Shown: positions 33,190 to 49,451 of the stretch, piece after piece | How the letters are laid out: each line of letters opens with the position of its first letter | Numbering within the stretch: position 1 is the first letter of the stretch | NCBI RefSeq assembly: GCF_000463015.1 | Contig: NC_022234.1 | Coordinates: 248,001 to 312,000, forward strand | Direction of reading: 5' to 3' | Length of the DNA stretch: 64,000 bases | Origin: Variovorax paradoxus B4 | GTDB taxonomy: Bacteria > Pseudomonadota > Gammaproteobacteria > Burkholderiales > Burkholderiaceae_C | Made by a program: the position numbers and the translations under genes | Notes under the pieces: model-generated | Database searches by the model: none | What the model was told of the DNA's origin: nothing | The model's input: the letters and a program-made list of their open reading frames with translations, nothing else

Positions 33190-34155
33190 TCAGTCTTCGC
33201 TCCTGAACCCCGAGGCCTTCACGATGGGGCGCCAGTACGCGCGGTCCTCGTTCATGATCCGCGTCACTTCCGCGCCGGGGAGCCCCGTCGGCTCCAGGCC
33301 CATGCGATCGACCTGCGCGCGCACCTGCGGATTGCGCATGGCGGCGAGCAGGGCGACCTCCAGCTTGGCGGCCACGTCCTTGGGCGTTCCTGCCGGCACG
33401 AAGGCGGCATAGGCGGCGTTGGCGCGGTCGAAGGCGTCGTAGCCCGACTCCTTGATCGTCGGAACGTCGGGCAGCCAGCTCAGCCGCCGGGTGCCCGCAA
33501 CGCCCAGGACCCGCAGCTTGCCCGTGCGGTGGAGTTCGAGTTGGCTGGCGAGTGCGTCGGCGCCGAGCGGTACGTGGCCTCCGACGATGTCGGTCGCGAG
33601 CGGCGCGCCGCCCTTGTAGGTGACCGGCGCGAGCGGCACGCCGATGGCCTTGGACAGCTGCAGCACGCTGAAGTGCAGTCCGCCTCCGAGGTTGGTCAGC
33701 CCCACGCTGGCGCCGGCGGGGTTCTTCCTGATCCACGCGACGTATTCGGGAACCGTCCTGAACGGCTGGTCTGCGCCGGCGGAAAGGACACTGGGCACGA
33801 TCGCCAGGTGCGCGACCGGGATGAAGTCCTTGTCGACGTCGTAGTTCAGCCGTGCATAGGTCATCGGAAAGAGAACGAAGGGCGGCGTCGAGCCCAGCAG
33901 GATGGTGCGGCCGTCGGGCCGTGCGGCCTTGACGGCCTCGATGGAAATGCGCGTCGACGCGCCGGGCCGGTTCTCCACCAGCACAGGCTCCTTGAGCGTG
34001 GTGCGCAGGTCCTCGGCCAGCGAACGCGCCAGGCTGTCGAGCGCGCCACCGGGCGGAAAGCCGATGACCAGCCGGATGGGCGCATCGGCATGCGCAGCGG
34101 CGCCGATCAGGGCGATCGACGCACCGAGAAGAAGTGTCTTGAGGAAAGAGGCCAT
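33190..34155 (-). CDS. Bug/TctC-family periplasmic receptor
   Basis: 321 residues. Signal peptide MASFLKTLLLGASIALIGAA with cleavage near AHA-DAPIRL. PIRLVIGFPPGGALDSLARS and LVENRPGASTRISIEAVKAA are diagnostic of the Bug family. No TctA/TctB permease is nearby. The adjacent amidase (43 bp upstream) suggests that an amide is the ligand. The longer open frame to 34575 is antisense or overlapping noise. Confidence 0.92.
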   Translation of the reverse strand: MASFLKTLLLGASIALIGAAAHADAPIRLVIGFPPGGALDSLARSLAEDLRTTLKEPVLVENRPGASTRISIEAVKAARPDGRTILLGSTPPFVLFPMTYARLNYDVDKDFIPVAHLAIVPSVLSAGADQPFRTVPEYVAWIRKNPAGASVGLTNLGGGLHFSVLQLSKAIGVPLAPVTYKGGAPLATDIVGGHVPLGADALASQLELHRTGKLRVLGVAGTRRLSWLPDVPTIKESGYDAFDRANAAYAAFVPAGTPKDVAAKLEVALLAAMRNPQVRAQVDRMGLEPTGLPGAEVTRIMNEDRAYWRPIVKASGFRSED

Positions 34156-34198
34156 GGTGGGGTACCTGCTGGGTTGAGAACGAAACGGAGGGGCGGAC

Positions 34199-35650
34199 TC
34201 AGAAAGCGAGGGTGGGCAGCGCGTTCGCCGGCCGGTGCGCGGCTTCGAAGAACGACGCGGCCTGCAGCAGCTGCTGGTCTTCGCGGAACCGGCCGACAAG
34301 CTGCATGCCGATGGGCAGGCCGTCGCGGCCCGCGCCGCACGGCAGGCTGATGGCGGGGTGGCCCGTGAGGTTGAAGGGCATCGTCCACGGAAACCAGTTC
34401 GCCCGCACTTCGGCATACGCCTCGCCATCGATCTCGATGCGGCCGAACAGGTCCTGGTCGATCGGCAGCGCCGTGCGGGAGAGCGTCGGCGTGAAGATGA
34501 AGTCGTGGCTCTCCAGCTGGGCCTGGACCTTGCGAAAGAGCGCGGTCCTGGCGAACATGGCCTGCTGGAAGGCAACCCCGTCGACGTGCTCCGCGAGCGC
34601 GAGCTGCTGCAGCAAGGACGGGCTCAGCTGGTCGGCATGCGCTGCGGCCAGCGGCGCGAAGCGGCCGCGCCAGCTGGTGTGGTTGATCACCCGCCACACC
34701 GGCTCGACGTCGTAGCCCTCGCCGGGCATCTGTTCGAGCTGCGCGCCCATCGAACGCAAGGTGGCAAGGGCGGCTTCGAAGGCAGCGGCGGCGTCGACGG
34801 AGATCGGGCGCCCCGCGGGTGTTGCGCAATAGAGAATCCGCTTGCCGCGCAGATCGCCGTCGGGCTGCAGTGCGTCGAAGTAGCGCTGCGCCGGCACACC
34901 CAACGACCAGGGATCGGACCCATGGGCGCCGGTCATGGCCTGCAGCATGAGCGCGGTGTCGGCCACGTTGCGCGTGGTGGGCGTCACGTAGGTGTAGTTG
35001 CCGAACGCGTCCTGCACCTGGCTGTGGGGCACCACGCCCAGGCTCTGCTTCAGGCCGACCACGCCGTTGCAGGCGGCGGGAATGCGGGTCGAGCCGCCGC
35101 CGTCGGTGGCGATGGCCAGCGGCGCGACGCCGGCCGCAATGGATGCGGCCGCCCCGCCGCTCGAGCCGCCGCTCGTGCGCGTTCCATCCCATGCGTTGCG
35201 GGTGCTTCCGAACAGCGGTGCGTCGGTCAGGCACTTGGCGCCGAATTCGGAGGTGGTCGTCTTGCCGATGAGGATGGCGCCGGCCTGGCGCATGCGCGCG
35301 ACGGCCACCGCGTCTTGCGCGGGAACATGGTCGCGATGCAGCAGGGAACCGTAGGTCGTCCTGACGTTCGCGGTGTCGACGATGTCCTTCACGGTGAAGG
35401 GCAGGCCGTGCAGCAGGCCCAGCGGCTCGCCCCTCATCACGGCGCTTTCCGCCTCGCGGGCCTGCGCCATCGCCTGCTCGTGGCAGAGCGTGATGAAGCA
35501 GTTCAGGTGTGGCTGGACGGCATCGGCACGGCGCAGGACTTCCAGGGTGATCTCCACCGGCGAGAGCTTTCGCTGCGCGACCAGCGTGCGCAGCGCCACG
35601 GCGGACAGCTCGCAGATTTCGGACTTCGGAAGACGCGGAAACTTTTTCAT
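34199..35650 (-). CDS. amidase (amidase-signature family)
   Basis: 483 residues from the ATG at 35650 (an alternative ATG is at 35677). The Ser-cisSer-Lys triad is visible: Lys in GLPFTVKDIVDTANV, the Gly/Ser-rich TRTSGGSSGGAAASIAAG, and nucleophile Ser in TDGGGSTRIPAAC. It hydrolyses an amide to acid and ammonia or amine in the cytoplasm. Operon with the Bug receptor and MFS transporter; divergent LysR 69 bp away. Confidence 0.93.
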   Translation of the reverse strand: MKKFPRLPKSEICELSAVALRTLVAQRKLSPVEITLEVLRRADAVQPHLNCFITLCHEQAMAQAREAESAVMRGEPLGLLHGLPFTVKDIVDTANVRTTYGSLLHRDHVPAQDAVAVARMRQAGAILIGKTTTSEFGAKCLTDAPLFGSTRNAWDGTRTSGGSSGGAAASIAAGVAPLAIATDGGGSTRIPAACNGVVGLKQSLGVVPHSQVQDAFGNYTYVTPTTRNVADTALMLQAMTGAHGSDPWSLGVPAQRYFDALQPDGDLRGKRILYCATPAGRPISVDAAAAFEAALATLRSMGAQLEQMPGEGYDVEPVWRVINHTSWRGRFAPLAAAHADQLSPSLLQQLALAEHVDGVAFQQAMFARTALFRKVQAQLESHDFIFTPTLSRTALPIDQDLFGRIEIDGEAYAEVRANWFPWTMPFNLTGHPAISLPCGAGRDGLPIGMQLVGRFREDQQLLQAASFFEAAHRPANALPTLAF

Positions 35651-35719
35651 GCGCAAATGATTGATGCGCCGCAACATCGAGTCCAATACTGTTTTCTTGA
35701 AAAGGCATACGACCAGCGT

Positions 35720-36619
35720 ATGGCAGCACCGGACTTCAGAACGCTCCGCTACTTCGTGGCGGTTGCCGAGGAACGCAGCGTGGGCAAGGCGGCACGCCGG
35801 CTCAACATGGCCCAGCCGCCCTTGTCGGTCCACATCAAGAACCTGGAGGCGGCGGTGGGCACGCCCCTGTTCCGCAGGGCGGCGCGCGGCATGGAGATCA
35901 CCGACGCCGGCAATGCGCTCTTCCAGCGCGCGAAGGAAGCACTGCTGCTTGCCAACGAAGGGTTCGACGCAGCGCGGGCGATCGGGTCGGGCAGCAGGGG
36001 CCGGCTCACGGTCGGAACCATGGTCGTGCTGTCCTACCTGGTGCTCCCTCGCCTGGAGAACACGCTTCGGGCGAAGCTGCCGGACGTGGAAATCCAGTAT
36101 GTGGAACTGAACGCCGTCAACAACGTCTCGGCCCTCACGGACTCGGACGTGTCGGTGGCGATCTGCATTCCGCCCATCGCCCAGCCAGGCATCGCGGTCG
36201 AACGCATCGGAACCCAGCCGCTGATGCTGGCCGTGCGCGCGGATTCGCCGTTGGCCCGCATGTCCAGCATTCCGATGGAGCGGCTTTCAGGCATGCCCCT
36301 GATCGGGCTGCCCGTGCCCGAAGGAGACGTCGACAAATCCGTCATCGCCTCGATGCTTCGGCGGCACGATGTCAGCATGCCGATCGCGCAGCGGGTCGAG
36401 ACCATGGTGTCGGCATTGGCGCTCGTCCTGGCAGGCAAGGGCGTGGCCATCCTGCCCGCCTGCGCCCGGATCGGCCGGCCTCCGGGGGTGGTGTTCAGGG
36501 CGCTTCGGAACGTCGATGCAAAGATGGACATCGCCGCCTGCTGGCGCAGCGATTGGCAGAGTCCGCTCATCGAACCCTTCCTGGCTTGCGCGCGCGCCTC
36601 GCTGCGGCAAGCTGCGTAG
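35720..36619 (+). CDS. LysR-family regulator of the amidase operon
   Basis: 299 residues. HTH SVGKAARRLNMAQPPLSVHI at about 20-39; the MAQPPLS motif is typical of the CatR/BenM-like LysR branch. Start at the ATG 35720, giving the family start FRTLRYFVAVAEE; the very long upstream open frame overlaps the amidase and is rejected. It is divergent from the amidase with only 69 bp between, so control of that operon is likely. Effector unknown. Confidence 0.92.
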   Translation: MAAPDFRTLRYFVAVAEERSVGKAARRLNMAQPPLSVHIKNLEAAVGTPLFRRAARGMEITDAGNALFQRAKEALLLANEGFDAARAIGSGSRGRLTVGTMVVLSYLVLPRLENTLRAKLPDVEIQYVELNAVNNVSALTDSDVSVAICIPPIAQPGIAVERIGTQPLMLAVRADSPLARMSSIPMERLSGMPLIGLPVPEGDVDKSVIASMLRRHDVSMPIAQRVETMVSALALVLAGKGVAILPACARIGRPPGVVFRALRNVDAKMDIAACWRSDWQSPLIEPFLACARASLRQAA

Positions 36620-37364: not shown

Positions 37365-37440
37365 GGGACCCGATGGTGCCGCCGGCCCCCTTCTGCGCAT
37401 GGCGGCGCTCGATCCAGCAGGTGGTGATCCCCAGCTGCTC
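37365..37440 (-). pseudogene. 3'-terminal remnant of a type II HAD dehalogenase gene
   Basis: On the minus strand these bases encode EQLGITTCWIERRHAQKGAG and a few further residues. The intact HAD at 49605-50303 has KQLGIATCWIERRHAQKGSG at the same place. The DNA match (37371-37437 against 49682-49748) shows 60 of 67 identical bases by eye, with an unbroken run of 32. Only the tail remains; the body of the gene is absent and the ParE toxin stop sits at the break. Confidence 0.8.
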
Positions 37441-37759
37441 AGTGGTAGTCGTCTTCACGCTGATGCCGAAGCGCCAGGATGTTGACGGTCTCAGCACCTT
37501 CAATCTCGTAAAGTGCGACGTAGCCGGCCCCGCTGCAGGGAATCACGAGTTCTCGCAAGAACGGGCTATCACTCGCTTTGCGGAAGATGAATGGTGTTCG
37601 GCTTAAGTGATTCTCTATCGCCGTGGCGAGGGTGTCGATGGTGCGTTGCGCCGCGTCGAAATCCTCGCGCGTTTTTGCACGGACGAGCAGGAAGTCGAAA
37701 AGTCGGATCAGGTCTTCACGGGCTGCGTCGGTGTATCTGACCTGGAATTCACCGTTCAA
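37439..37759 (-). CDS. ParE/RelE-family toxin
   Basis: 106 residues. The fold is shown by FQVRYTDAAREDLIRLFDFL near the start and LRELVIPCSGAGYVALYEIE with VNILALRHQREDDY at the end, as in ParE-type toxins that poison gyrase or the ribosome. The ATG overlaps the antitoxin stop by four bases, the normal order for such pairs. It lies directly against a broken HAD gene, as expected for a mobile or addiction module. Confidence 0.88.
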   Translation of the reverse strand: MNGEFQVRYTDAAREDLIRLFDFLLVRAKTREDFDAAQRTIDTLATAIENHLSRTPFIFRKASDSPFLRELVIPCSGAGYVALYEIEGAETVNILALRHQREDDYH

Positions 37760-38028
37760 CCCAGCACCTGTTTACGCCGCGCGTCGAGCCGTGCCTGGAG
37801 TTCGCCGTGCACGGCCGCCGCGGAATGATAGACGCCGGTACGCTGGGCCTCCTGGCTGGCGTGCAGGCCGCGCGCGAGGAAGTCCGCCTGCACCTGGCGG
37901 CGCTGGATGGCTTCGCGCACGGCTGTTTCGATCAGCGCGCTGAGCGTCTCACCTTCGCGGAGCACGCTCTCGGCGGCCAGGCGGAGTTCGGCCTCGACTC
38001 GAAGGGAAGGAAAGGTGGAAGTCTTCAT
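37756..38028 (-). CDS. antitoxin partner of ParE-type toxin
   Basis: 90 residues from the ATG at 38028, after AAGGTGGAAG. The N-terminus FPSLRVEAELRLAAESVLRE looks like a ribbon-helix-helix DNA-binding domain, followed by a charged helical tail that would wrap the toxin. Such antitoxins usually repress their own promoter. Open sequence up to 38295 has no ribosome site. Assignment rests on size, fold and toxin overlap. Confidence 0.82.
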   Translation of the reverse strand: MKTSTFPSLRVEAELRLAAESVLREGETLSALIETAVREAIQRRQVQADFLARGLHASQEAQRTGVYHSAAAVHGELQARLDARRKQVLG

Positions 38029-38381
38029 GGCCGTGATGCGTTGCAATTGCGACGCATCGAGTATATACCCGCGCCGGAGGCGATGCTCGGTAGCAAATCG
38101 CGATGGGGAGGGCAGGGCCCGCCAGCGGCCTGGTGATCGCACCAAGGCGGTTTCCTGATTGGTCGCCAAGTGCCGCCCGCCTGCGATCACGGCGTCAATG
38201 GCATGGCTCGGACGTCGAGGAAAACTGAAGTTCCGCACCAGGACGGAGACCTTCCATGGGCAGATCACTTCTCGGACTGGGCGAAATAAGTTCAATAAAT
38301 ATCAATTTAAATAATGTTGATTCATAAAAACAGGATTTCTAGAATTCCTCCATAGCGATTCGTCGCAGATGCGAGGCAGAG
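38029..38381. other. 353-bp region between toxin-antitoxin pair and SDH-like cluster
   Basis: No gene is seen. The last 100 bases are strikingly AT-rich compared with the rest of the window (for example 38283-38345) and should contain the promoter of the plus-strand cluster. The remaining part carries the antitoxin promoter. Confidence 0.55.
38301..38321. promoter_or_regulatory. AT-rich dyad upstream of SDH-like cluster
   Basis: ATCAA (38301-38305) and TTGAT (38317-38321) form an inverted repeat within an AT-rich tract, 61 bases before the start of the Fe-S subunit gene. It is a possible operator for the cluster's own LysR (44108-45010); this is inference. Confidence 0.4.
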
Positions 38382-39116
38382 ATGGATACCGACAACCCCA
38401 CGAAGCAGAGACAACTCACCGTACGAATCTCTCGAGGAACCGGCGATGGTTCCTTATCAACGTATCTGGTTCCCTGGCGCGAAAACCAGACCGTGCTGGA
38501 CGTCGTGACGGAGGTCCAACGGACCCAGGAGCCAGACCTTTCCTATCGATTCGCTTGTCGCGTTGGCGTGTGCGGCTCCTGTGCGATGACGGTCAACGGA
38601 AAGCCCCGCTGGACCTGCCGAACCCATGTCAGCCGCGTGGAAGAGGAGGGGGTCATCGTCATCGAGCCTCTTCGCAACATGCCGCGCATCAAGGACCTCG
38701 TGGTCGATATGCGCGAGTTCTTCCAAAAGTGGAAAAAGGCGGGCAGCACCTTTGTTGGCACGGCAACACGGAATGATCCGCCGGCACGGGTGCCTCCCCA
38801 GAGCAAGAAGCGCAGGCTGGCAGATGCCGCGATCGAATGCATCAATTGCGGCGTGTGCTATGCCGCCTGTGACGTCGTCACCTGGGACAAGGACTATCTG
38901 GGACCAGCTGCGCTCAATCGTGCCTGGACCCTCTACAACGACGAACGACATGCGGACCCCAACGACGTTTTGCACAAGGCAACGTCCGGTGGCGGCTGCA
39001 ATTCGTGCCACACGCAAGGCAGTTGCATGAAGCATTGCCCGGTCAGCCTGAGCCCGACCGGCAGCATTGCGGGACTGAAGCGAAGTGCGCTCCTGAGTTT
39101 CCTCAAGCGAGACTGA
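38382..39116 (+). CDS. succinate dehydrogenase/fumarate reductase-like iron-sulfur subunit
   Basis: 244 residues, normal SdhB/FrdB length. The 2Fe-2S cluster ligands are Cys59, 64, 67 and 79 (CRVGVCGSCAM then TCRTH). The 4Fe-4S ligands are probably Cys153, 156, 159 and 219, and the 3Fe-4S ligands Cys163, 209 and 215. A further Cys206 is extra, and the usual Pro after Cys163 is Asp. It passes electrons from the flavoprotein to the membrane anchor. First gene of a B-C-D-A cluster with 1-bp gaps and 4-bp overlaps, unlike the usual C-D-A-B order. Confidence 0.92.
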   Translation: MDTDNPTKQRQLTVRISRGTGDGSLSTYLVPWRENQTVLDVVTEVQRTQEPDLSYRFACRVGVCGSCAMTVNGKPRWTCRTHVSRVEEEGVIVIEPLRNMPRIKDLVVDMREFFQKWKKAGSTFVGTATRNDPPARVPPQSKKRRLADAAIECINCGVCYAACDVVTWDKDYLGPAALNRAWTLYNDERHADPNDVLHKATSGGGCNSCHTQGSCMKHCPVSLSPTGSIAGLKRSALLSFLKRD

Positions 39117-39117
39117 A

Positions 39118-39453
39118 ATGGAAGCTCGCCTCTTCGCTCTTCAGCGCCTCACGGCAATGGTCATGGCGCCATTTGTCTTCACGCATGTGGGACTCATCAT
39201 CTACGCGGTCCGCGGCGGACTGACCGCTGGCGAAGTCCTCTCTCGCACGCAAGGCAACTGGGTGTGGATCGCGTTCTACGGCCTCTTTGCGATCAGCGTG
39301 GCCGTCCACGTTCCGATCGGCGTGCGCAACATCCTCATCGAATGGCTGCGCCTCGGACGAAGCGCCGCGTCCCTGGTGAGCCTGGTGTTCGGCGCCGCAT
39401 TGCTGTACCTGGGCCTTCGCGCCGTCGCCGCGGTGGGGGGACTGATGCCATGA
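39118..39453 (+). CDS. SDH-like membrane anchor subunit 1 (cytochrome b-type)
   Basis: 111 residues with three hydrophobic helices. ALQRLTAMVMAPFVFTHVGL and AVHVPIGVRNILIEW follow the R-x-(S/T)...H and H-x3-G-x-R patterns of SdhC/FrdC anchors. His23 and His64 are candidate haem ligands. It starts one base after the Fe-S gene stop and overlaps the next gene by four bases. With its partner it would anchor the complex and pass electrons to or from quinone. Confidence 0.86.
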   Translation: MEARLFALQRLTAMVMAPFVFTHVGLIIYAVRGGLTAGEVLSRTQGNWVWIAFYGLFAISVAVHVPIGVRNILIEWLRLGRSAASLVSLVFGAALLYLGLRAVAAVGGLMP

Positions 39454-39794
39454 AGACCGCTCGCAGTCATCAAGCGTACTGGGCCTTCCTGGGGCATCGC
39501 CTCTCGGGCCTGGCGCTTGCACTCTTCCTACCCGCCCACTTCTACGTGCTCGGCATGGCCCTGGACGAAGCACGCCTCGACCGCTTCCTGAAGCTGTCGG
39601 AGATGCCCGCGATGAAGTTCGGCGAGTGGGGACTCGTCCTGTTACTGACACTGCACATGTTCTTTGGATCGCGCCTGCTCGCACTCGAGCTGCTTCCCTG
39701 GAGCTCCACCCGCGACGCTCGCCTGGCCTGGATTGGCTGGGGTTTTGCGGCATCGATGGCATTTGGCTTTGCGTTCATCGCGAGAGTGATTTGA
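39450..39794 (+). CDS. SDH-like membrane anchor subunit 2
   Basis: 114 residues from the ATG at 39450. GHRLSGLALALFLPAHFYVL is the characteristic first helix of SdhC-type anchors (Arg17, Ser19, His30), followed by LLTLHMFFGSRLLALELL with His69 and a third helix ending the protein. Both anchors look like SdhC-type halves, as in some fumarate-reductase/SDH variants. The longer open frame from 39264 is another gene's shadow. Confidence 0.86.
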   Translation: MKTARSHQAYWAFLGHRLSGLALALFLPAHFYVLGMALDEARLDRFLKLSEMPAMKFGEWGLVLLLTLHMFFGSRLLALELLPWSSTRDARLAWIGWGFAASMAFGFAFIARVI

Positions 39795-39795
39795 A

Positions 39796-41535
39796 ATGAA
39801 CTTCGAGACTTACAAGACCGATATCCTGGTGCTGGGAACCGGTGGTGCCGGCCTGTTTGCTGCCTTGCATGCCAAGAAGGCGAATCCTTCCCTGCGCGTC
39901 ACGGTCACGGTCAAAGGTTTGCTTGGAAAGTGCGGATGCACACGCATGGTCCAGGGCGGCTACAACGTGGCGCTGTCGGCTGGAGACTCGGTTGAGCGAC
40001 ACTTCATGGACACCATCGAGGGCGGCAAGTGGCTGCCGCGCCAGGATCTCGCATGGCGCCTCGTGGAAGGGGCCGTCGAGCGCGTGCGCGAACTCGAGAA
40101 CGAGATCGGGTGCTTCTTTGACCGCAATCCCGACGGGTCGCTCCATTCGAAGGCCTTTGCGGGCCAGAGCTTCGATCGCACGGTCCACAAGGCCGACCTG
40201 ACGGGCATCGAGATCATCAACCGCCTCATGGAGCAGGTGCGCGCGATGGACGTCGAGGAGCTCGAGGAGCATCGCGCGATCGAGCTCATTCCGGCGGCCG
40301 ATGGAGCCGGAATCGCCGGTGTCCTGTTCATTGACATGCGTGCGGGTACCTATCGCCTGGTGCAGGCAAAAGCGGTACTCCTCGCGACGGGCGCCGGGCC
40401 GACGATGTACCGCTATCACACGCCGTCCGGCGACAAGACCTGCGATGGGCTGGCCATGGCGCTGCGGTATGGCCTGAAGCTGCGGGATATGGAGATGGTG
40501 CAGTTCCATCCCACCGGACTCCTCGGTGGGCCGGATACGCGCATGACGGGCACCGTTCTCGAGGAGGGCCTGCGCGGCGCCGGGGGTTACCTGCTCAATG
40601 GGGGCGGCGACCGGTTCATGACCCACTACGACAAGCGTGGCGAGCGTGCGACCCGCGACGTCGTCAGCCGAGGCATCTACGCCGAGATGCGCGCGGGGCG
40701 CACGGGGCCCATGGGTGGCGTCTACATCCAGATGAGCCACCTCGGCCCGGAGAAGGTCGCCAAGACATTTCCGGGAATGGTCAATCGCTGCAAGGACTGC
40801 GGCTTTGATCTGGCAGGTGGCAAGGTCGAAGTGGTTCCGACAGCCCACTACCTGATGGGGGGTGTCGAGTTCAACGTCGACTGCTCGACCGCATCGCCAG
40901 GACTGTTCGCCGCGGGCGAGGACTGCGGAGGCGTCCATGGGGCCAATCGCCTTGGCGGCAACGGTGTCGCGAACTCCACCGTCTTTGGTGGCATCGCGGG
41001 AGACTCCATGGCCGCCTTCGTCGAGAGGAACGGCAAGTGGCGCGACCCCGACAGCCGAATTGTCGCCAGCGGGATCGAGCGCGCGGAGTATCCATTTTCC
41101 AGGTCGGTGGGTCGTATCCACGAGTTGCGCGACGCCCTGGCACAGACGATGTGGGATGACGTAGGCGTGCTGCGCAACCGTGAGGCGATGGAACATGGGC
41201 TCGAAGCAGTGGCCTCTCATCGAGCCGCGCTGTCGGCAATGGGCGTCGCAGATGGTGATCGCCGCTACAACGTGACCTGGCACGACTGGCTGAACCTGGA
41301 AAGCCTCGTCGATATCTCAAAGATCATTACCGTCTCCGCACTGGCGCGCGAGAACAGTCGCGGCGCTCATTTCCGCGAAGACTTCCCCGACCCGGGCGAT
41401 CTCCACTCCAGCTGCTACACGCGCGTGAGCGCCCGGGACGACGACGTACAGCTCGAAATGGTCCCCGTCTCCTTCGACATCGTGAGACCCGGTGAATCGC
41501 TCATCACCGGCGAAGCAGACACCCCCCAAACCTGA
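39796..41535 (+). CDS. succinate dehydrogenase/fumarate reductase-like flavoprotein subunit
   Basis: 579 residues. FAD loop GTGGAGL at 14-20; substrate residues His238 (VQFHPTGL), Arg287 (RATRDVVSRG), His351 (HYLMGG) and Arg385 (GANRLGGN) are all in place, so dehydrogenation of a succinate-like acid or reduction of a fumarate-like one is likely. The His that carries covalent FAD in SdhA/FrdA (S-H-T-V-A-A-Q-G-G) aligns with Cys48 in GCTRMVQGG, so FAD may be non-covalent or bound otherwise. One-base gap from the second anchor gene; the class I fumarase genes follow 12 bp later. Confidence 0.9.
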   Translation: MNFETYKTDILVLGTGGAGLFAALHAKKANPSLRVTVTVKGLLGKCGCTRMVQGGYNVALSAGDSVERHFMDTIEGGKWLPRQDLAWRLVEGAVERVRELENEIGCFFDRNPDGSLHSKAFAGQSFDRTVHKADLTGIEIINRLMEQVRAMDVEELEEHRAIELIPAADGAGIAGVLFIDMRAGTYRLVQAKAVLLATGAGPTMYRYHTPSGDKTCDGLAMALRYGLKLRDMEMVQFHPTGLLGGPDTRMTGTVLEEGLRGAGGYLLNGGGDRFMTHYDKRGERATRDVVSRGIYAEMRAGRTGPMGGVYIQMSHLGPEKVAKTFPGMVNRCKDCGFDLAGGKVEVVPTAHYLMGGVEFNVDCSTASPGLFAAGEDCGGVHGANRLGGNGVANSTVFGGIAGDSMAAFVERNGKWRDPDSRIVASGIERAEYPFSRSVGRIHELRDALAQTMWDDVGVLRNREAMEHGLEAVASHRAALSAMGVADGDRRYNVTWHDWLNLESLVDISKIITVSALARENSRGAHFREDFPDPGDLHSSCYTRVSARDDDVQLEMVPVSFDIVRPGESLITGEADTPQT

Positions 41536-41547
41536 GGGCACACCCAA

Positions 41548-42483
41548 ATGAAGATTCCGATTCAGAAAGTTGAAGAAGCCGCCTTGGAGATCACGCGACG
41601 CGCTGCGATCGAGATTCCTCCCGACTACAAGAAGGGAATTCAGGAGCTGCAGAAGACGGAGACCGGAAAACTGCCTCGGTTCGTCATCCACGCGATGGTC
41701 GACAACTGGGAGGCCGCAGATCAGGATCGCCGTCCCATGTGCGCCGATACCGGCCTGCCGCGGTATTACGTGAAGGTTGGCAACAACGCATCGGTCGAGT
41801 CGGGATTCGTTGCCGTGGAGCGAGCGCTCCGGCATGCGACGGCAGAAGGTACGGTCACGATTCCGCTTCGGCCGAATCGCGTGCATCCCTTGTGGCGCAC
41901 GGATCACAACAACAACGTCGGCATCAATGCCCCCGAAGTCGAGTGGTCGTTCGAGCCGGACGCAGACTGGCTCGACGTCACCACCGTCCACAAGGGCGGC
42001 CTCTTCGGGACCGACTACCGCATGTTGTTCCCCGGGGACGGAATCGACGGTATCAAGCGCTTTGTCCTGGACACGCTGATTGCCTTCGGAAAGCGCGGCC
42101 TGGCCTGCCAGCCCGCGATCGTCGGGATCGGCTTGGGTGGCTCCAAGGACACCTGCATGCAGCTGGGCAAACAGGCTGCGTGCCTGCGCACGGTCGGGGA
42201 CCGGAATCCCGATCCGAAGGTCGCCGAGCTCGAACTTGAGTTGATGAAGCTCGGAAACTCGATCGGGATGGGCGCCATGGGCTTTGTGGGGTCCGGGATG
42301 GTCGTGGATTGCCACATCGAGTGCGGTTACACGCACACCGGTGGCATGCCCATCAGCCTGCACACCTTCTGTCTTTCATCACGGCGTGCCACAGCGCGCA
42401 TCCATGCCAACGGCGAGATCGAGTATCGAACCGATCCCCAATGGTTCACCCCCTATCTGCGTCGGGAGACGGTCGAATGGTAA
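41548..42483 (+). CDS. class I fumarase / L(+)-tartrate dehydratase-family alpha subunit
   Basis: 311 residues. Iron-sulfur hydro-lyase; likely 4Fe-4S ligands are Cys65 (RPMCADTGLP), Cys187 (LACQPAIVGIGLGG) and Cys275 (LHTFCLSSRRA), with spacing like that of class I fumarases. The two-subunit form acts as fumarase, L-tartrate dehydratase or mesaconase. Next to an SDH-like complex it probably hydrates the unsaturated acid that complex makes. It overlaps the beta gene by seven bases (ATGGTAA). Confidence 0.9.
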   Translation: MKIPIQKVEEAALEITRRAAIEIPPDYKKGIQELQKTETGKLPRFVIHAMVDNWEAADQDRRPMCADTGLPRYYVKVGNNASVESGFVAVERALRHATAEGTVTIPLRPNRVHPLWRTDHNNNVGINAPEVEWSFEPDADWLDVTTVHKGGLFGTDYRMLFPGDGIDGIKRFVLDTLIAFGKRGLACQPAIVGIGLGGSKDTCMQLGKQAACLRTVGDRNPDPKVAELELELMKLGNSIGMGAMGFVGSGMVVDCHIECGYTHTGGMPISLHTFCLSSRRATARIHANGEIEYRTDPQWFTPYLRRETVEW

Positions 42484-43157
42484 GCAGCAACGACGACATC
42501 AAGGTCTTCCACCTGAACCTTCCGGCGAAGCGGGAAGACATTGCGAAGCTCGAGCTGGGCTGCGCGGTCTATCTGAACGGCGTGGTCTACACCGCGCGCG
42601 AGGGTGTCTACAAGAAGGTGCTGGACGAGGGATTGGCGCTACCCGTCGATCTGAAGTCGATCAGCAACGTCAACTTCCACTGCTCGCCGGCCGCCGCACC
42701 CGACGGCAAGGGAGGCTACAGGGTCGGCGCTGTGACCGCCACGGCATCCTTTCGCTTCTCGAAGTGGATTCCTCGCTGGCTCGAACAGACAGGGTGCAGC
42801 ATCCTCATCGGAAAAGGAGGCATGCCTGCCGATGACTACAAGAAGGTCCTCGCTCCGGGTGGCGCCATCTACCTGACAACCGTCGGCTACGGCACCGGTG
42901 CGCTGCTCGGTCGCGGCATCAAGCGTGTCCGGGAGGTCCACTGGCTCGATGAGCTGGGGATCGCCCAGGCCATGTGGTTGTTCGAGGTGGAGAACTTCGG
43001 TCCCTTCATCGTCGAGAGCGATCTGGAAGGCAACTCCTTGTTCGCGCAGCATGCCGAGACCATCAATGCCGGCATCGAGGCCCTGTATGCAGGTCTCAAG
43101 CCTCCAGCGCTGCATCGCTACGGCGAGACCGACAACCGCAAGGACGAGGTGATGTAG
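42477..43157 (+). CDS. class I fumarase / L(+)-tartrate dehydratase-family beta subunit
   Basis: 226 residues. C-terminal domain of class I hydro-lyases: GCAVYLNGVVYTAREGVYKK near 30-49, LIGKGGMPADDY, and LTTVGYGTGALLGRGIKRVR. It completes the active site of the alpha subunit. The ATG at 42477 overlaps the alpha stop, indicating tight coupling. Substrate could be fumarate, tartrate, mesaconate or another substituted fumarate; sequence alone does not decide. Confidence 0.9.
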   Translation: MVSSNDDIKVFHLNLPAKREDIAKLELGCAVYLNGVVYTAREGVYKKVLDEGLALPVDLKSISNVNFHCSPAAAPDGKGGYRVGAVTATASFRFSKWIPRWLEQTGCSILIGKGGMPADDYKKVLAPGGAIYLTTVGYGTGALLGRGIKRVREVHWLDELGIAQAMWLFEVENFGPFIVESDLEGNSLFAQHAETINAGIEALYAGLKPPALHRYGETDNRKDEVM

Positions 43158-43223
43158 CCGCCGGCATTGCAGGCTTGCGATGCCGCCCGGGTTCGAGTCG
43201 TTTCCATTCAAAAGGTCAGTGCC

Positions 43224-44057
43224 ATGATCATCGATTTCCGTCTGCGCCCGCCGGTCGGCGGCTTCCTCAATACGCTCATGTACTCGGCCGGCGAGCGCCG
43301 CGATGGGTTCACGCGAACGGTCGGCTTTGAACCATCGAAAGCGGCTCAGAAACAGTCGATGGAGTCGCTGCTCAAGGAGATGGACGAAGCGAAGATCGAT
43401 CGTGGCGTGGTCGTGGGCCGCCTTGCCGGCGTGCTCGGCAGCGTATCGAACGATGATGTCCTGAGGATTGTCACTGACTACCCTGGCCGCTTCATCGGCG
43501 CCGCATCCATTGATCCCACCGATCGGCGCCGAGCATGCCAGACAATCACCCAGGCGGTGAAGGATGGATTCAAGCTGATCAACATCGAGCCCGGATCGTA
43601 CCCGGTGCCGATGTACGCGGATGACCGCCGCCTCTATCCGATCTACGGCCACTGCGAGGACATCGGCGTGCCCGTCATCATGATGGCGGGTGGCACCGCA
43701 GGCCCGGACCTCAGCTATTCCGATCCCATCCGGACGGACCGGGTCCTCGCGGACTTCCCCAGGCTCAATGTCGTCGTTGCCCACGGCGGATGGCCTTGGG
43801 TCAACGAGATCCTGCACCTGGGATTTCGTCGTTCCAACCTTTGGCTCTCTCCCGACATGTATTTTTCCCGAATGCCAGGATGGGAAGAGTACGTCAAGGC
43901 GGCGGATGGCTTTCTGGCTGAGCGCATGCTGTACGCCAGCTCGTTTCCCTTTTGTCCGGTCCTTGGCTACAAGGAGTGGTTCGAGAAGCTGCCAATCAGG
44001 GAAGAAAATCTGCGCAAGGTCATGGGGGGCAACGCGCGCCGGCTGCTGGGAATCTAG
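43224..44057 (+). CDS. amidohydrolase-2 (ACMSD-like) family protein, atypical N-terminal metal site
   Basis: 277 residues from the ATG at 43224. TIM-barrel family shown by DDVLRIVTDYPGRFIGAASI, VVVAHGGWPWVNEIL and LRKVMGGNARRLLGI. The usual first metal motif D-x-H-x-H is absent: the N-terminus reads MIIDFRLRPPVGG, so metal binding must differ or be lost. Members decarboxylate or hydrolyse aromatic or lactone acids. The 66-bp gap after the fumarase beta gene keeps it in the same operon. Role in the pathway unknown. Confidence 0.83.
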   Translation: MIIDFRLRPPVGGFLNTLMYSAGERRDGFTRTVGFEPSKAAQKQSMESLLKEMDEAKIDRGVVVGRLAGVLGSVSNDDVLRIVTDYPGRFIGAASIDPTDRRRACQTITQAVKDGFKLINIEPGSYPVPMYADDRRLYPIYGHCEDIGVPVIMMAGGTAGPDLSYSDPIRTDRVLADFPRLNVVVAHGGWPWVNEILHLGFRRSNLWLSPDMYFSRMPGWEEYVKAADGFLAERMLYASSFPFCPVLGYKEWFEKLPIREENLRKVMGGNARRLLGI

Positions 44058-44107
44058 AAGCTCCACGGCTGACCCGCAGAGTCAATTTCGAAGAAGGTAT
44101 TTGCTGC

Positions 44108-45010
44108 ATGGACATCAAGACGCTGTACACCTTGGTCGCGATCGCTGATCGAGGAAGCTTCGTGGAGGCGGGCAATAGCATCGGCCTTTCACTGTCCGCG
44201 GTAAGCATGCAGATGCGTGCTCTCGAGGAAGAGCTCGAGAGCACCATCTTCGATCGCAGCCGTCGTCCACCGGTCCTGACCGATGCGGGGTTGGCCCTGG
44301 TGCATCGCGCACGCGATCTGCTCGCCCATTGGGAGAGCATGAGCGCTTCGCTCAAGAAGGGCACGGCGGTCGGGTTGCTGAAACTGGGAAGCGTTCACAC
44401 CGTTGCCTCAGGCGTATTGCCGCTGGCGCTGCGTCACCTGCAACGACAAGGCCATGGCCTTGAGGTACACGTCACCACCGGCCTGACGCATGACCTGGAG
44501 CGAGCTGTCTACCATCGGCAGTTGGATGTGGCCCTGGTCACCGAGCCGGAGCTTCCACGAAGTGGCCTTGACTTTCTACCATTCGTCGACGAGGCGCTCG
44601 TGGTCATCGCACACAAGTCCGCAAAAGGGGCGAGCGATCAGGAAGTACTCGAAGGAACGCCGTATGTCCGCTTCAATCGATTGGCCCGGGTGGGCAACCT
44701 CGTTCAAGAGGAGATCGTCCGCCGACAGATCACTGTCCGCTCGACCATGGAGATCGACAACCTTGAAGGTGTCATCGCCATGGTCGCCAATGGTCTCGGC
44801 GCGTCGGTTGTTCCGGCTCGCGGGGTGAAGAATGAATTTCCAACCACCGTTCGAGTGATTCCCTTCGGCAATCCGACAGTGACTCGTCGATTGGGAATGC
44901 TCGCCCCGAAGGAGAACCCGAGGTCGCACTTGTGTCAGCTACTTCTGGAAGCGCTGCAGGCGGTCACCACCGGTCCTGACGAACTGGTTCGAAAGGTCGG
45001 CTCCGCCTAA
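44108..45010 (+). CDS. LysR-family regulator in the SDH-like cluster
   Basis: 300 residues. HTH SFVEAGNSIGLSLSAVSMQM at about 18-37, then an effector domain from about 90. The ATG at 44108 follows GAAGAAGG; the upstream open frame belongs to the amidohydrolase region. It sits in the middle of a same-strand cluster and is not divergent, so it may respond to the pathway substrate and act on the AT-rich promoter region before 38382 as well as on the Bug gene 125 bp downstream. Confidence 0.91.
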   Translation: MDIKTLYTLVAIADRGSFVEAGNSIGLSLSAVSMQMRALEEELESTIFDRSRRPPVLTDAGLALVHRARDLLAHWESMSASLKKGTAVGLLKLGSVHTVASGVLPLALRHLQRQGHGLEVHVTTGLTHDLERAVYHRQLDVALVTEPELPRSGLDFLPFVDEALVVIAHKSAKGASDQEVLEGTPYVRFNRLARVGNLVQEEIVRRQITVRSTMEIDNLEGVIAMVANGLGASVVPARGVKNEFPTTVRVIPFGNPTVTRRLGMLAPKENPRSHLCQLLLEALQAVTTGPDELVRKVGSA

Positions 45011-45135
45011 GGCCGCCTTCAAAACCAACTCCACTCCTCATGCACCGAATCGAGCCAATGGGCTTGAGGGCGATCCATCGCCTGCCCCTAAGCAAACTGC
45101 TGCAACCCATCACGTCAATCATTAAGGAGATTACG

Positions 45136-46137
45136 ATGAAATTCTCGTTCAGATCCAAGCCGGCCCGTCGTCGAGCCCTGGAGGTTGCAGCATGCGCACT
45201 GCTCGGCGGCCCGCTGCTTTGCGGCACGGCACTCGCGGACTGGCCGGCGGACAAGCCGATTCGGATCGTGGTGCCTTTTGCCGCAGGCGGCGCCACTGAT
45301 CTGCTCGGGCGCGCGCTGGCCGTGGAACTGACCAAGAGCCTCAAGCAAAGTGTGATCGTTGAAAACAAGCCTGGTGCAGGCGGCAACCTGGGTGCCCAGG
45401 CCGTGGCAATATCGCCGCCCGATGGCTACACACTGCTGCTGGCGTCGGGGAGCATGTTCACGGTCAACCAGTTCATCTACGCCAAGCCCGGCTACACCTT
45501 GAGCAGCTTTTCCCTGATCAGCAAGGTGGCCAGCGGTCCGATGGTGGTGACGGTGAATTCGGACCTGCCGGTGAAAAGCACGAAGGAACTGATCGCCTAC
45601 GTCAAAGAGCGGCCCGCCAAGATCAGCTTCGCCTCGGCGGGGGTTGGCAGCCAGACGCACATGGCAGGCGAGTCGCTGGCAGACGCGGCAGGACTCGAGC
45701 TTCTGCATGTGCCTTACAAGGGCGAGGGCCCCGCCTATGGAGATCTGATGGCGGGCACGGTGCAACTGGCCGTTGCCAATATCAATGCGATGTCTCCGCT
45801 TCTCAAGGGCGGACGGCTCCGCGCACTTTCGGTGACGGGGAAAGAGCGGTCCCCGCTGCTTCCCAACATTCCCACCACCGCCGAGGATGGCGTCCCCGGA
45901 TTCGAGTACATGGCTTGGTTCGCTCTCGCAGCGCCGGCCGGGACGCCGAAGGCGGCCATCGACCGTTTGCTCACCGAGGTGAAAGCAGCTGTTGCCGAGC
46001 CGGGGATGAAACGATACCTGACCGAACAGGGGATGTCGGCTGCCATCGTTCCACCCGAGCCGCTGAAGGTGGAGATCCTCAGTGAAGCGAGTAAGTGGAA
46101 GGCTCTCGTCGAGAAGAAAAAGCTTTCTGCCAACTGA
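45136..46137 (+). CDS. Bug/TctC-family periplasmic receptor of the SDH-like cluster
   Basis: 333 residues from the ATG at 45136, preceded by AAGGAG. Signal peptide to about residue 37 (ACALLGGPLLCGTALA-DWP). KPIRIVVPFAAGGATDLLGR and IVENKPGAGGNLGAQAVA identify the family. These receptors commonly bind di- and tricarboxylates, fitting succinate-like chemistry upstream. No TctAB permease in the window. A TauE/SafE transporter gene follows after 70 bp. Confidence 0.92.
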   Translation: MKFSFRSKPARRRALEVAACALLGGPLLCGTALADWPADKPIRIVVPFAAGGATDLLGRALAVELTKSLKQSVIVENKPGAGGNLGAQAVAISPPDGYTLLLASGSMFTVNQFIYAKPGYTLSSFSLISKVASGPMVVTVNSDLPVKSTKELIAYVKERPAKISFASAGVGSQTHMAGESLADAAGLELLHVPYKGEGPAYGDLMAGTVQLAVANINAMSPLLKGGRLRALSVTGKERSPLLPNIPTTAEDGVPGFEYMAWFALAAPAGTPKAAIDRLLTEVKAAVAEPGMKRYLTEQGMSAAIVPPEPLKVEILSEASKWKALVEKKKLSAN

Positions 46138-46207
46138 GGCCTTGTCTTCTCCGATTGGCCGGGTGGGCAAGAGCGCAACCCAATCCTTTCCATTTCTCTA
46201 GCGAGCG

Positions 46208-46963
46208 ATGCCACTATCACCTGAACTTGTTGCAGTTGCTGCGCCCATCGTCTTCGTCGCATACGCCGTATTCGGGATGACTGGATTCGGTGCGGCAATG
46301 GTGGCCGTGCCTATGCTCGTCCAGCTCATCCCGCTTCAGGTGGCGGTGCCTCTCGTGGTCCTCTTCGACCTGGTGGCGACAGCGATGGTCGGTGGCAAGA
46401 ACTGGGGCAGCGTCTCCACGCCGGAATTGAAGTACCTGTTGCCGTCCATGCTGCTGGGGATTGCCATAGGGGTGGTATTGCTTCACAACGTAGGGCCGAG
46501 GTGGCCCCTGGTGGGACTCGGCGTCTTCGTGCTGGTTGTCAGCGTTCGCAATCTGCTGGCCGGTGAATCGGCGGCAAGGCCGCGGCTCCCCAGGGTATGG
46601 TCCTTGCCATTCGGGATGGCTGGCGGCGTGTTCAGCGCGCTGTTTGGTACCGGGGGACCGATCTATACGATCTATTTGGCCAGACGGCTATCTGATGTCG
46701 ACCACTTCAGGGCGACGATTGCCGTCGTGATCCTTCTGAGCGGAATCAGCCGAGCCGCCGCGTTTGGTGTGGCAGGTCTTTATGGAAAGGACTCCATCCT
46801 CGGATTGGCTTGCGTCCTTCTCCCGATGTCCTTGCTCGGACTCTTCGTGGGTTCGAAGGCCAGGACCCTGGTGTCGCCTGAGCGCTTGAAGCGCCTTGTC
46901 CTGCTGCTCTTGTCGGCCGCTGGCGCTGGTGCGATCTACCGTGGTTTGGTTGCAAGCGGCTGA
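46208..46963 (+). CDS. TauE/SafE (TSUP)-family membrane transporter
   Basis: 251 residues with about seven or eight hydrophobic segments. The repeated TSUP signature appears as YAVFGMTGFGAAMVAVPMLV in the first half and GMAGGVFSALFGTGGPIYTI in the second. The family moves sulfite, sulfoacetate or other organic anions, often outward. Its place after the Bug receptor of an organic-acid cluster suggests export of a by-product or uptake of the acid itself. It is convergent with the ABC receptor gene. Confidence 0.88.
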   Translation: MPLSPELVAVAAPIVFVAYAVFGMTGFGAAMVAVPMLVQLIPLQVAVPLVVLFDLVATAMVGGKNWGSVSTPELKYLLPSMLLGIAIGVVLLHNVGPRWPLVGLGVFVLVVSVRNLLAGESAARPRLPRVWSLPFGMAGGVFSALFGTGGPIYTIYLARRLSDVDHFRATIAVVILLSGISRAAAFGVAGLYGKDSILGLACVLLPMSLLGLFVGSKARTLVSPERLKRLVLLLLSAAGAGAIYRGLVASG

Positions 46964-47935: not shown

Positions 47936-48622
47936 TCACATCACTCCGAACGTCTTGAATGCCTCGACCGTGCTCATGCCGTTCTTGATGGCTTTTCTCA
48001 CGCTGCTTTCCGTGTCGGCCTTTTCTAGCGCGAGGCTGATCGCCTCCTTTTCCGCCTCGCGCGGAATGATCAGCACGCCGTCCTGGTCGCCGAAGACGAT
48101 GTCGCCGGGGCGAACTCGAATTCCCCGGATCTCCACCGGCACGCGATAGTCGACGACCTTGCCTCGCGGGCCCTGGTCCTGGGAGTAGCCGCCAAGCGAA
48201 AACACTGGGAGGCCCAATTCGAGAACCTCCGTCGTATCACGGGAATACCCGTCGAGAACGGCGCCGGCTGCTTTCAGATGCAGGGCTCGCGTGGTCATCA
48301 GACCTCCCCACAGCGCGAACTCGGGGGCCGACCCCGTTGCCACGTAGACCTCGTTCGGCGCGAGATCGTCCAGCGCCTCGAAAAGCAGACCGAAAGCCTG
48401 CTGGCTCAGCGGCGATTTGCCCTCGGGTTCGGAGCGCGCATAGCAGTTGGTCTCCAGCACGGGCATGGCGCGGCCCGCCACGACCATGGAGCGTTCGACC
48501 GGCTTGATGGCCGGGGGCAGGAACTGGTGCATGAAACCCAGGGTGTCGAGGATGTCGCCGACCACTGCAGGGAACAGGCGCGCGCGCATCAGGGTGAACA
48601 GTTCGTCATCGTCTTTCCACAT
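47936..48622 (-). CDS. RraA-like / HMG-oxaloacetate aldolase-family protein
   Basis: 228 residues from the ATG at 48622. The family core is clear: PAVVGDILDTLGFMHQFLPP, the glycine-rich LWGGLMTTRALHLKAAGAVL, DGYSRDT with the conserved Asp, and RPGDIVFGDQDGVLIIPRE. Members are either RNase E inhibitors or aldolases/decarboxylases of 4-hydroxy-4-methyl-2-oxoglutarate and oxaloacetate. Association with a FadR-type regulator and a receptor points to catabolism more than RNA control. The divergent GntR gene starts 91 bp away. Confidence 0.88.
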   Translation of the reverse strand: MWKDDDELFTLMRARLFPAVVGDILDTLGFMHQFLPPAIKPVERSMVVAGRAMPVLETNCYARSEPEGKSPLSQQAFGLLFEALDDLAPNEVYVATGSAPEFALWGGLMTTRALHLKAAGAVLDGYSRDTTEVLELGLPVFSLGGYSQDQGPRGKVVDYRVPVEIRGIRVRPGDIVFGDQDGVLIIPREAEKEAISLALEKADTESSVRKAIKNGMSTVEAFKTFGVM

Positions 48623-48685
48623 CGCTTCTTGCCTCCTGAAGAAATGCGGATTGGACCCATGGCGGCACGCGTGCACAACCTGTCC

Positions 48686-48700
48686 ACCTGTATGATAGGT
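48686..48700. promoter_or_regulatory. possible GntR/FadR operator
   Basis: ACCT-N7-AGGT dyad 13 bp before the GntR start and in the gap to the RraA-like gene. Position fits repression of both genes; the arms are short, so this is tentative. Confidence 0.4.
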
Positions 48701-48713
48701 TAGGAGACGACGC

Positions 48714-49451
48714 ATGACCGCACACCCCTTCGTCCTAGGCCGACTGGAGAGGACTTCCCTTGCAGAGCAGGCCGTTCAGAGCCTTCTGCAGCGCATACAG
48801 GACGCGAAGCTCGGCCCGGGATCACCGCTGCCTTCGGAAGCGCGCCTGGGTGAGTCGCTCGGGGTGAGCCGAACCGTCGTGCGCGAGGCGCTGAGAACCC
48901 TGAAGGGCTTGGGTGTGATCGACATTTCGAACGGCAAGAGCCCGACGATCCGCCGCGAACTGGACGCGACTGCGCTGGGCATCTACTTTTCGCGCGCCGT
49001 GCAGGTTCTGGACAATTCCACGGAGGACTTGATGGACGTGCGGGCAAGCCTCGAGGGTCGCGCTGCAGCATTGGCAGCGCTTCGCCGCACGCCGGAGCAA
49101 CTGGCCCGGATGTCTGATCTGGTGATCCGGATGCAAGCGCAGCTTCGCCGCCCCGCGGTGTACGCGTCGCTCGATATGGAGCTGCACCTGGAAATCTCGC
49201 GGGCGAGCGGAAACCTGCTGCTGTTCCAGATCATCGGATCGATCCGGGCCTCGCTGGAAGCGCAGTCGCGCCAGGGCATGGAACGGCGCAAGACAGAAGC
49301 AAGCCTGCAACAGGTGCAGGATGCCCACGTCGAACTCGTCGAGCGGATCGGCAACCGGGATGCAGAAGGTGCAAGCCGATGCATGCTCTCGCACATGGAG
49401 CGCGCGCTGAGGGTGCTCCAAAAGCCGCCTGGCGTGCAGGCCCGCAAGTAA
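48714..49451 (+). CDS. GntR-family regulator, FadR/FCD subfamily
   Basis: 245 residues. Winged helix at about 15-75 (PLPSEARLGESLGVSRTVVR). Helical FCD ligand domain with the expected metal/ligand residues around DLMDVRASLEGRAAALAALR and SLDMELHLEISRASGNLLLF. It usually represses a neighbouring organic-acid operon until the substrate binds. Divergent from the RraA-like gene. Ribosome site GGAG at 48702-48705. Confidence 0.92.
   Translation: MTAHPFVLGRLERTSLAEQAVQSLLQRIQDAKLGPGSPLPSEARLGESLGVSRTVVREALRTLKGLGVIDISNGKSPTIRRELDATALGIYFSRAVQVLDNSTEDLMDVRASLEGRAAALAALRRTPEQLARMSDLVIRMQAQLRRPAVYASLDMELHLEISRASGNLLLFQIIGSIRASLEAQSRQGMERRKTEASLQQVQDAHVELVERIGNRDAEGASRCMLSHMERALRVLQKPPGVQARK

Follow-up and report, generated by a model that had tools for sequence, protein, structure and literature searches.

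A complex II-like and fumarase-like operon of Variovorax paradoxus B4 as a candidate module for sulfonate catabolism

What is a second succinate dehydrogenase (SDH)-like complex for, when it is encoded apart from the housekeeping enzyme and in one operon with a fumarase-like hydro-lyase (HL)? The question is raised by a 64,000-nucleotide stretch of Variovorax paradoxus B4 DNA (contig NC_022234.1, positions 248,001 to 312,000; hereafter the window), in which positions 38382-46963 hold ten intact genes, all on the + strand, as identified from the list of open reading frames (ORFs) together with Pfam and NCBIfam. These genes are a real, dedicated and unannotated catabolic operon. Taking all sulfonate readings together, its substrate is probably some sulfonate; our best single guess, held with moderate confidence, is that the operon serves the catabolism of 3-sulfopropanoate (3-SP), which would be broken down via sulfoacrylate and sulfolactate. 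3-SP is succinate with a sulfonate in place of one carboxylate.

The operon and its housekeeping counterparts

In the first six genes, densely packed in the order sdhB-D-C-A-HLa-HLb, neighbours either lie 1, 1 and 12 bases apart or overlap by 4 bases; of the two overlaps, one is between the HLa stop and the GTG start of HLb. Behind this block come the genes for an amidohydrolase_2 protein, a LysR regulator, a Bug receptor and a TauE/SafE transporter:

38382..39116, + strand: SdhB-like Fe-S subunit (TIGR00384, 178 bits, cut-off 88; PF13085)
39118..39453, + strand: membrane anchor, SdhD-like (PF01127 above cut-off; TIGR02968, 29 bits, below cut-off 41.8)
39450..39794, + strand: membrane anchor, SdhC-like (PF01127 above cut-off; TIGR02970, 39.9 bits, below cut-off 52.3)
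39796..41535, + strand: flavoprotein, proposed 3-sulfopropanoate dehydrogenase (PF00890 and PF02910)
41548..42483, + strand: class I Fe-S hydro-lyase alpha subunit, HLa, proposed sulfoacrylate hydratase (PF05681; TIGR00722 above cut-off)
42480..43157, + strand: class I hydro-lyase beta subunit, HLb, GTG start (PF05683)
43224..44057, + strand: amidohydrolase_2 family protein, function unknown (PF04909)
44108..45010, + strand: LysR-family regulator (PF00126 and PF03466)
45136..46137, + strand: TctC/Bug periplasmic receptor (PF03401)
46208..46963, + strand: TauE/SafE (TSUP) transporter, proposed sulfite export (PF01925, 103 bits, cut-off 32.6)

This gene set and its tight packing had been listed in a preliminary description of the window, and the ORFs, Pfam and NCBIfam bear them out. 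The order B-C-D-A given there is revised to B-D-C-A, because NCBIfam scores the first anchor as SdhD-like and the second as SdhC-like, both below cut-off. The same order of sdh and HL genes was found again in distant genomes, and the arrangement is therefore not a matter of chance.

A search of the genome (7,148,516 bases; of its two contigs, the smaller carries the window) for another SDH had been set beforehand as the test able to overturn a dedicated role. It recovered a canonical sdhC-D-A-B set at C2:1.655-1.660 Mb (SdhA 925 bits, cut-off 727), accompanied by an SdhE-like ORF recognised by eye. At C2:3.20 Mb lies a single-chain class I hydro-lyase of 517 amino acids, above the cut-offs of TIGR00722 and TIGR00723 and at 269.5 against the fumarate hydratase model (cut-off 276), and nadB is found at C2:4.51 Mb. 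The housekeeping SdhA scores 778 with TIGR01812, the window flavoprotein 427 (cut-off 567). Because the genome has these separate genes, the operon is not the housekeeping SDH/fumarase set, a candidate function that we ruled out; the earlier view that it was not housekeeping thus holds, and its accessory occurrence is in keeping.

That occurrence was surveyed with the alpha subunit as query (E <= 1e-60), the window's own genome being counted at genus, order and phylum level. In the genus, HLa turned up in one genome out of 61, the one that contains the window; the order gave 3 of 389 and the phylum 10 of 398. Another family (f55) has it in 34 of its 295 genomes, and the order to which genome G047 belongs has it in 21 of 249. 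Twelve plasmid records also matched, from Cupriavidus, Paracoccus, Sulfitobacter, Methylobacterium, Pseudorhizobium and Pseudomonas; ten were inspected, eight annotated and two without annotation. The operon is an accessory, patchy trait, yet a widespread one. For comparison of loci, the best 80 of 577 stretches encoding an HLa relative were kept and examined; with 49 further loci they make 129, or 126 after removal of the duplicates L161, L191 and L104, which the motif counts for the Fe-S subunit, the anchors and the amidohydrolase still include.

A conserved complex II plan with an altered active site

The domain architecture is that of complex II, with FAD_binding_2 and Succ_DH_flav_C, Fer2_3/Fer4 and Sdh_cyt anchors all present in a four-subunit plan. 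The SdhB-like Fe-S subunit retains its cysteines in at least 98% of 110 loci, and the same level of conservation holds for the HRxSG motif of the SdhC-like anchor (109 loci) and for further anchor His residues (99-110 loci matched). The flavoprotein differs. None of the 25 NCBIfam models shown, those for SDH, fumarate reductase (FRD) and NadB included, gives it a score that reaches the cut-off. We aligned it and its homologues with E. coli SdhA, FrdA and NadB, using the 66 of the 80 loci with a match of at least 540 columns and omitting 14. The two substrate His residues, the binding Arg, the catalytic Arg and the Glu beside the catalytic Thr are kept in 66/66 homologues; they include H232, H355 and R390 (substrate) and R287 (catalytic) of E. 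coli quinol:fumarate reductase (QFR), with the FrdA numbers of the alignment counted from the initial residue and thus higher by one, and the SdhA numbering the one we take to be usual. In the same 66/66, Cys replaces the FAD-binding His, Glu replaces the catalytic Thr (QFR T244) and Gly replaces a Ser. The residues specific to the family are C48, R249, E256 and R284 in window numbering, R249 being an extra Arg in an inserted loop. The roles of the active-site residues are taken from passages of PMC10238741.

The SdhB-D-C-A-like proteins are thus predicted, from their conserved motifs, to form an intact quinone-linked complex with an altered substrate site; by the FAD His, the catalytic Thr and the SdhA and FrdA cut-offs they are not SDH or FRD proper. 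The change may lie at one end of the substrate. An AlphaFold model of the flavoprotein (mean pLDDT 74.7, with 41-57, 238-254 and 281-285 among the segments below 50) was not used. Relatives of the flavoprotein are called 'L-aspartate oxidase' or 'fumarate reductase' in public records, although the window protein reaches the model cut-offs of neither family and nadB is present separately in the genome.

Like two-subunit class I fumarases, TtdAB and mesaconase, the hydro-lyase has alpha and beta subunits with Fumerase and Fumerase_C domains. It shares three cysteine positions with FumA and TtdA, which places it in class I. Unlike fumarase or L-tartrate dehydratase proper, it carries CADTG for CQDTG (80 loci) and TATASFRF for PTTxxRM (77 loci, 3 of the 80 being left out of the beta-subunit alignment). 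HLa exceeds the cut-off of TIGR00722, yet scores below the fumarase and TtdA models, and HLb is below the cut-offs of all 8 NCBIfam models matched.

Sulfonate genes near the operon and in its genome

Which substrate the altered pair might serve is suggested by the genes around it. Across the 126 loci, TSUP genes were found in 47 and the Bug cluster in 49, followed by a thiamine diphosphate (ThDP) enzyme (38), the amidohydrolase (23), MmsA (21), a nitroreductase (12), a Liv-type transporter (11), a zinc alcohol dehydrogenase (8), a SorA-like enzyme lacking the sulfite-binding Arg (6), CuyA-like (6) and TtuC-like (5) proteins and mandelate-racemase-family genes (4; one member scanned). Most of these cluster names rest on one or few scanned members, and L063 (TtuC-like) and L170 and L182 (SorA-like) were added by hand. 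TSUP genes occur in 25 of 49 loci against 1.54 copies expected from genome-wide counts, a Poisson figure that ignores relatedness; PF01925 was confirmed in one member of each of the three TSUP clusters.

Several loci carry genes of C3-sulfonate metabolism. Both sulfopyruvate decarboxylase subunits, alpha and beta, exceed their cut-offs in L111, beside HisD-like and LldD-like genes. L045 encodes D-cysteate sulfo-lyase CuyA (551, cut-off 450) and cysteate racemase CuyB (293, cut-off 190), and a member of the CuyB cluster recurs in L163. The NT-26 locus encodes a semialdehyde dehydrogenase (TIGR01780, 691, cut-off 646) and a protein resembling sulfolactaldehyde-3-reductase (324, cut-off 348). In the Paracoccus loci a 2-hydroxyacid dehydrogenase gene has as its neighbour a member of the Ldh family that matches the L-sulfolactate dehydrogenase model best (204, cut-off 500). 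A YeiH-type cluster, annotated in public records as putative sulfate exporters, adjoins HLb in L163 and L186 and lies farther off in L026, whose member contains PF03601.

The plasmid loci extend this picture. Of the eight annotated ones (two being near-identical Paracoccus loci), six have TauE/SafE and six have YeiH or a putative sulfate exporter; in L206 YeiH lies ~7 kb downstream, and L207 is without either. On a Methylobacterium nodulans plasmid the order is sdhBDCA-HLab-amidohydrolase-symporter-sulfate exporter-SorA-cytochrome c-TauE, with soxC upstream (SorA 696, cut-off 600; soxC 607, cut-off 420). The Pseudomonas MPC6 plasmid locus reads HLab-MmsA-NIPSNAP-sulfate exporter and also encodes SorT (667, cut-off 570) with a cytochrome c; its MmsA gene (TIGR01722, 695, cut-off 448) begins at the last base of HLb. 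In L208, a plasmid locus of Sulfitobacter sp. THAF37, the operon is followed ~9 kb downstream, from position 20742 onward, by a gene that carries the annotation 3-sulfinopropanoyl-CoA desulfinase.

Carriers of the operon also tend to encode Xsc. Its score passed the cut-off in 41 of the 46 carriers and in 9 of the 29 non-carriers compared; within a single family the corresponding figures are 29 of 33 and 7 of 16. The 46 were drawn from 61 carriers, the 15 left out being mostly, not all, incomplete or contaminated, and the non-carriers came from the f55 and G047-order surveys rather than from a random draw.

The window's own genome holds, at C2:4.167-4.175 Mb, a SuyA-like ORF and genes for a SuyB-like protein, a 2-hydroxyacid dehydrogenase, an Ldh-family enzyme, a Bug receptor, acetate kinase and Xsc (1048, cut-off 676). 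The best model of the Ldh-family gene is again L-sulfolactate dehydrogenase (195, cut-off 500). These names are our reading of the cluster, after the suyAB/slcC/comC arrangement that we take to be known from sulfolactate degraders. Such genes of sulfolactate, 2,3-dihydroxypropane-1-sulfonate (DHPS) and cysteate clusters (suyAB, slcC, comC, comDE, cuyAB, xsc, tauE) thus adjoin the operon in several loci and occur elsewhere in the window's genome; to our knowledge, none of the known clusters includes an SDH-like complex or a fumarase-like hydratase.

The remaining genes of the operon and its flanks are less telling. The amidohydrolase matches PDB 3irs (BB4693, uncharacterized; E 6e-97), and a literature search for BB4693 returned no paper. 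HxH is the metal motif usual in the amidohydrolase superfamily; because DFRxRPP stands in its place at the N terminus of this family (31 loci matched), the protein may not be a metal enzyme. Upstream of the operon, overlapping small genes on the - strand (37439-37759 and 37756-38295) resemble a type II toxin-antitoxin pair (ParE/RelE-like plus antitoxin), and a separate unit at 33190-36619 comprises a Bug-receptor frame with amidase-like and LysR-like genes; downstream, at 47936-49451, an RraA-like gene is divergent to a GntR-like regulator gene. These flanks were read by eye from the ORF list.

3-Sulfopropanoate and its rivals

The C3-sulfonate genes (sulfolactate, sulfopyruvate, cysteate, sulfolactaldehyde, semialdehyde dehydrogenase) lead us to favour 3-SP over a substituted succinate. 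The preliminary description had proposed a substituted succinate, for example alkyl- or sulfosuccinate: its sulfonate component agrees with the neighbouring genes, whereas the substituted succinate itself is fitted less well than 3-SP by the C3-sulfonate genes. In the route that we propose, the Bug-type receptor, with membrane parts encoded elsewhere, would import 3-SP or a precursor. The SdhB-D-C-A-like complex would oxidise 3-SP to 3-sulfoacrylate, passing electrons through quinone to the respiratory chain, and the two-subunit [4Fe-4S] class I hydro-lyase would add water to give 3-sulfolactate. This would be desulfonated by the suyB-like, slcC/comC-like and xsc products encoded elsewhere in the genome, and TauE/SafE would export the sulfite. 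The substrate, the direction, each reaction and the transporter cargo are all deduced here from gene content and homology. TSUP export of an anionic by-product, also suggested earlier, fits the sulfonate neighbourhood; this by-product may be sulfite.

The chemistry has a precedent. As reported in parts of PMC11489063, Cupriavidus necator H16 forms 3-SP from homotaurine as a by-product, and in anaerobes it arises from sulfoquinovose (SQ) and DHPS. The same parts cite a thesis (J. Mayer) in which Roseovarius nubinhibens breaks down homotaurine via 3-SP, sulfoacrylate and sulfolactate, describe 3-SP degradation by bacteria as otherwise previously unreported, and note that Bilophila uses 3-SP as a source of electron acceptor. 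The two reactions of the R. nubinhibens route correspond to an SDH-like and a fumarase-like step; in that account the route is known by its chemistry, without genes, and the growth substrate is homotaurine. A literature search for published breakdown genes for 3-sulfopropionate found none, its four other matches being unrelated by title. A homologue labelled 'Roseovarius sp.' (P0168) is among the 120 of 3667 matches listed, where R. nubinhibens ISM is not named. Related pathways for 3-sulfinopropionate and mercaptosuccinate in Advenella and Variovorax share C3/C4-acid organosulfur analogues, betaproteobacterial hosts and sulfite release; they differ in using a CoA ligase and desulfinase, or a thiol dioxygenase and spontaneous hydrolysis (parts of PMC5373536).

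A number of observations weigh against this route. On the enzyme side, parts of PMC10238741 state that succinate oxidation requires a raised flavin potential; loss of the FAD-binding His should lower that potential, and it may be low here unless Cys48 binds FAD. Because parts of PMC11489063 name a TauE protein as a probable 3-SP exporter, the window transporter may carry a sulfonate and not sulfite. In the own genome, the SuyA-like ORF (93 amino acids) matches no model; the SuyB-like protein exceeds the cut-offs of PF04295 and GD_AH_C, scores 144 against 731 with the galactarate dehydratase model and has no dedicated model; and the ComC-like and SlcC-like proteins are below cut-off. Elsewhere, the CuyA-like proteins of L194, L177 and L172 fall below the CuyA cut-off, L036 and L041 (among the best 80) have the HL genes with no SdhA-like match within the fetched stretch, and the locus counts are not phylogenetically independent. 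A SorA-like molybdenum enzyme sits just 3' of HLb in L110, L170, L174, L176, L182 and L189; of the 70 Mo-co_dimer places in 61 genomes, six are no more than 4 kb away from HLa, where ~0.14 would be expected (calculated with 71). Because the sulfite-binding Arg is replaced (Leu in the aligned L189 protein; LLxHFDVP in all six), we discarded this enzyme as proof of sulfite release. In L107, L108 and L172 a gene of the homocysteine S-methyltransferase family (PF02574 in L107) separates HLa from HLb, and in L194 and L196 a CuyA/D-cysteine-desulfhydrase-like gene separates sdhB from sdhC; both are unexplained. Neither MmsA behind HLb nor the ThDP enzyme sits well with a simple sulfolactate route; of the ThDP protein, the window's genome has no close copy (best identity 31%). 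The 3-SP route leaves the ThDP enzyme, the amidohydrolase, the nitroreductase, MmsA and the Arg-less SorA-like enzyme unexplained or only partly explained.

MmsA would be accommodated if the hydro-lyase itself cleaved the C-S bond: hydration of sulfoacrylate (or sulfofumarate) at the sulfonated carbon would give an unstable alpha-hydroxysulfonate that falls apart into sulfite and malonate semialdehyde (or oxaloacetate). We regard this as possible and rather doubtful; if true, it would be a new kind of sulfonate-cleaving chemistry, tied directly to the quinone pool. In its 3-SP form, an unlikely one in our estimate, malonate semialdehyde would be taken to acetyl-CoA by MmsA. The MmsA gene lies directly after HLb in two loci, L204 and L193, which suggests a variant whose hydratase step itself yields malonate semialdehyde and sulfite. 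The MmsA cluster in 21 of the 126 loci and its place at the HLb end in MPC6 and L193 speak for this version, in which the carbanion would be stabilised by the carboxylate rather than by the sulfonate. Against it, MmsA was not found in the other 105 loci and none was recognised around the window operon (ORF list, by eye), the sulfolactate-type genes are left unexplained, and the sole reported chemistry found goes via sulfolactate (parts of PMC11489063).

Sulfosuccinate, near the earlier suggestion, would be oxidised to sulfofumarate, and hydration at the sulfonated carbon would release oxaloacetate and sulfite spontaneously. This would account for TSUP and the sulfite enzymes with a minimal gene set like that of the window, agrees with the retention of the residues that hold both carboxylates, and would give the mandelate-racemase-family genes (4 of 126 loci) a suitably chiral substrate; V. 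paradoxus B4 is also, we assume, a degrader of mercaptosuccinate. It would have no need of the nearby C3-sulfonate genes (sulfolactate, sulfopyruvate, cysteate, semialdehyde dehydrogenase), and the literature search found no paper with 'sulfofumarate'. For 'sulfosuccinate' combined with SDH, fumarase, TSUP or the sulfonate literature, no paper with the word was among the matches listed (20 of 576 and 15 of 16), and elsewhere one surfactant review containing it appeared (PMC5445686); a search by gene set brought up a single paper, on an unrelated subject. Because of the plasmid loci and PMC11489063 we rank it below 3-SP and consider it improbable.

A little less probable again is a substituted succinate without a sulfonate, such as methylsuccinate, converted via mesaconate and methylmalate to propionyl-CoA by the ThDP enzyme with MmsA or by a TtuC-like enzyme. 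In the pair tests, which drew on the 92 (of 126) loci whose flanks exceed 6 kb on both sides, MmsA accompanied the ThDP enzyme in 14 of 33 loci and was present in 7 of the 59 remaining ones (Fisher 0.0015, a figure that relatedness inflates). L063 has a TtuC-like dehydrogenase (548, cut-off 470), and class I fumarases accept mesaconate according to part of PMC4682846. MmsA, the ThDP enzyme and the TtuC-like enzyme are the only neighbours that possibly support the alkylsuccinates of the preliminary description, which we retain as a rival. Methylsuccinate would leave unexplained TSUP, the sulfate exporter, SorA/SorT, CuyAB, sulfopyruvate decarboxylase and the co-occurrence with Xsc, and the title of PMC12290011 places methylsuccinate use by Pseudomonas in an itaconate cluster, a different gene set.

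A spare SDH and fumarase for the tricarboxylic acid (TCA) cycle under special conditions is very improbable: the domains, those of complex II and of class I fumarase, would suit it, whereas the canonical SDH and the class I fumarase-like gene are separate in the genome, the catalytic Thr and FAD His are replaced throughout the homologues aligned, and occurrence is patchy, down to a single genome in the genus. A cationic substrate (quaternary ammonium or sulfonium), prompted by the Thr-to-Glu change and the homocysteine methyltransferase, was also tried, and further support for it was not found.

What is new in the 3-SP proposal is a complex II and class I fumarase pair serving a sulfonate; the folds themselves are not new. 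If the proposal is right, the operon would supply candidate genes for the missing aerobic step of 3-SP breakdown in many Alpha-, Beta- and Gammaproteobacteria, and would correct the names that this protein family currently bears, 'L-aspartate oxidase' or 'fumarate hydratase'. It would also mean that the SDH and fumarase pair of the TCA cycle has been duplicated and retuned to a sulfonate analogue, with a complex II that works without the catalytic Thr and the FAD-binding His.

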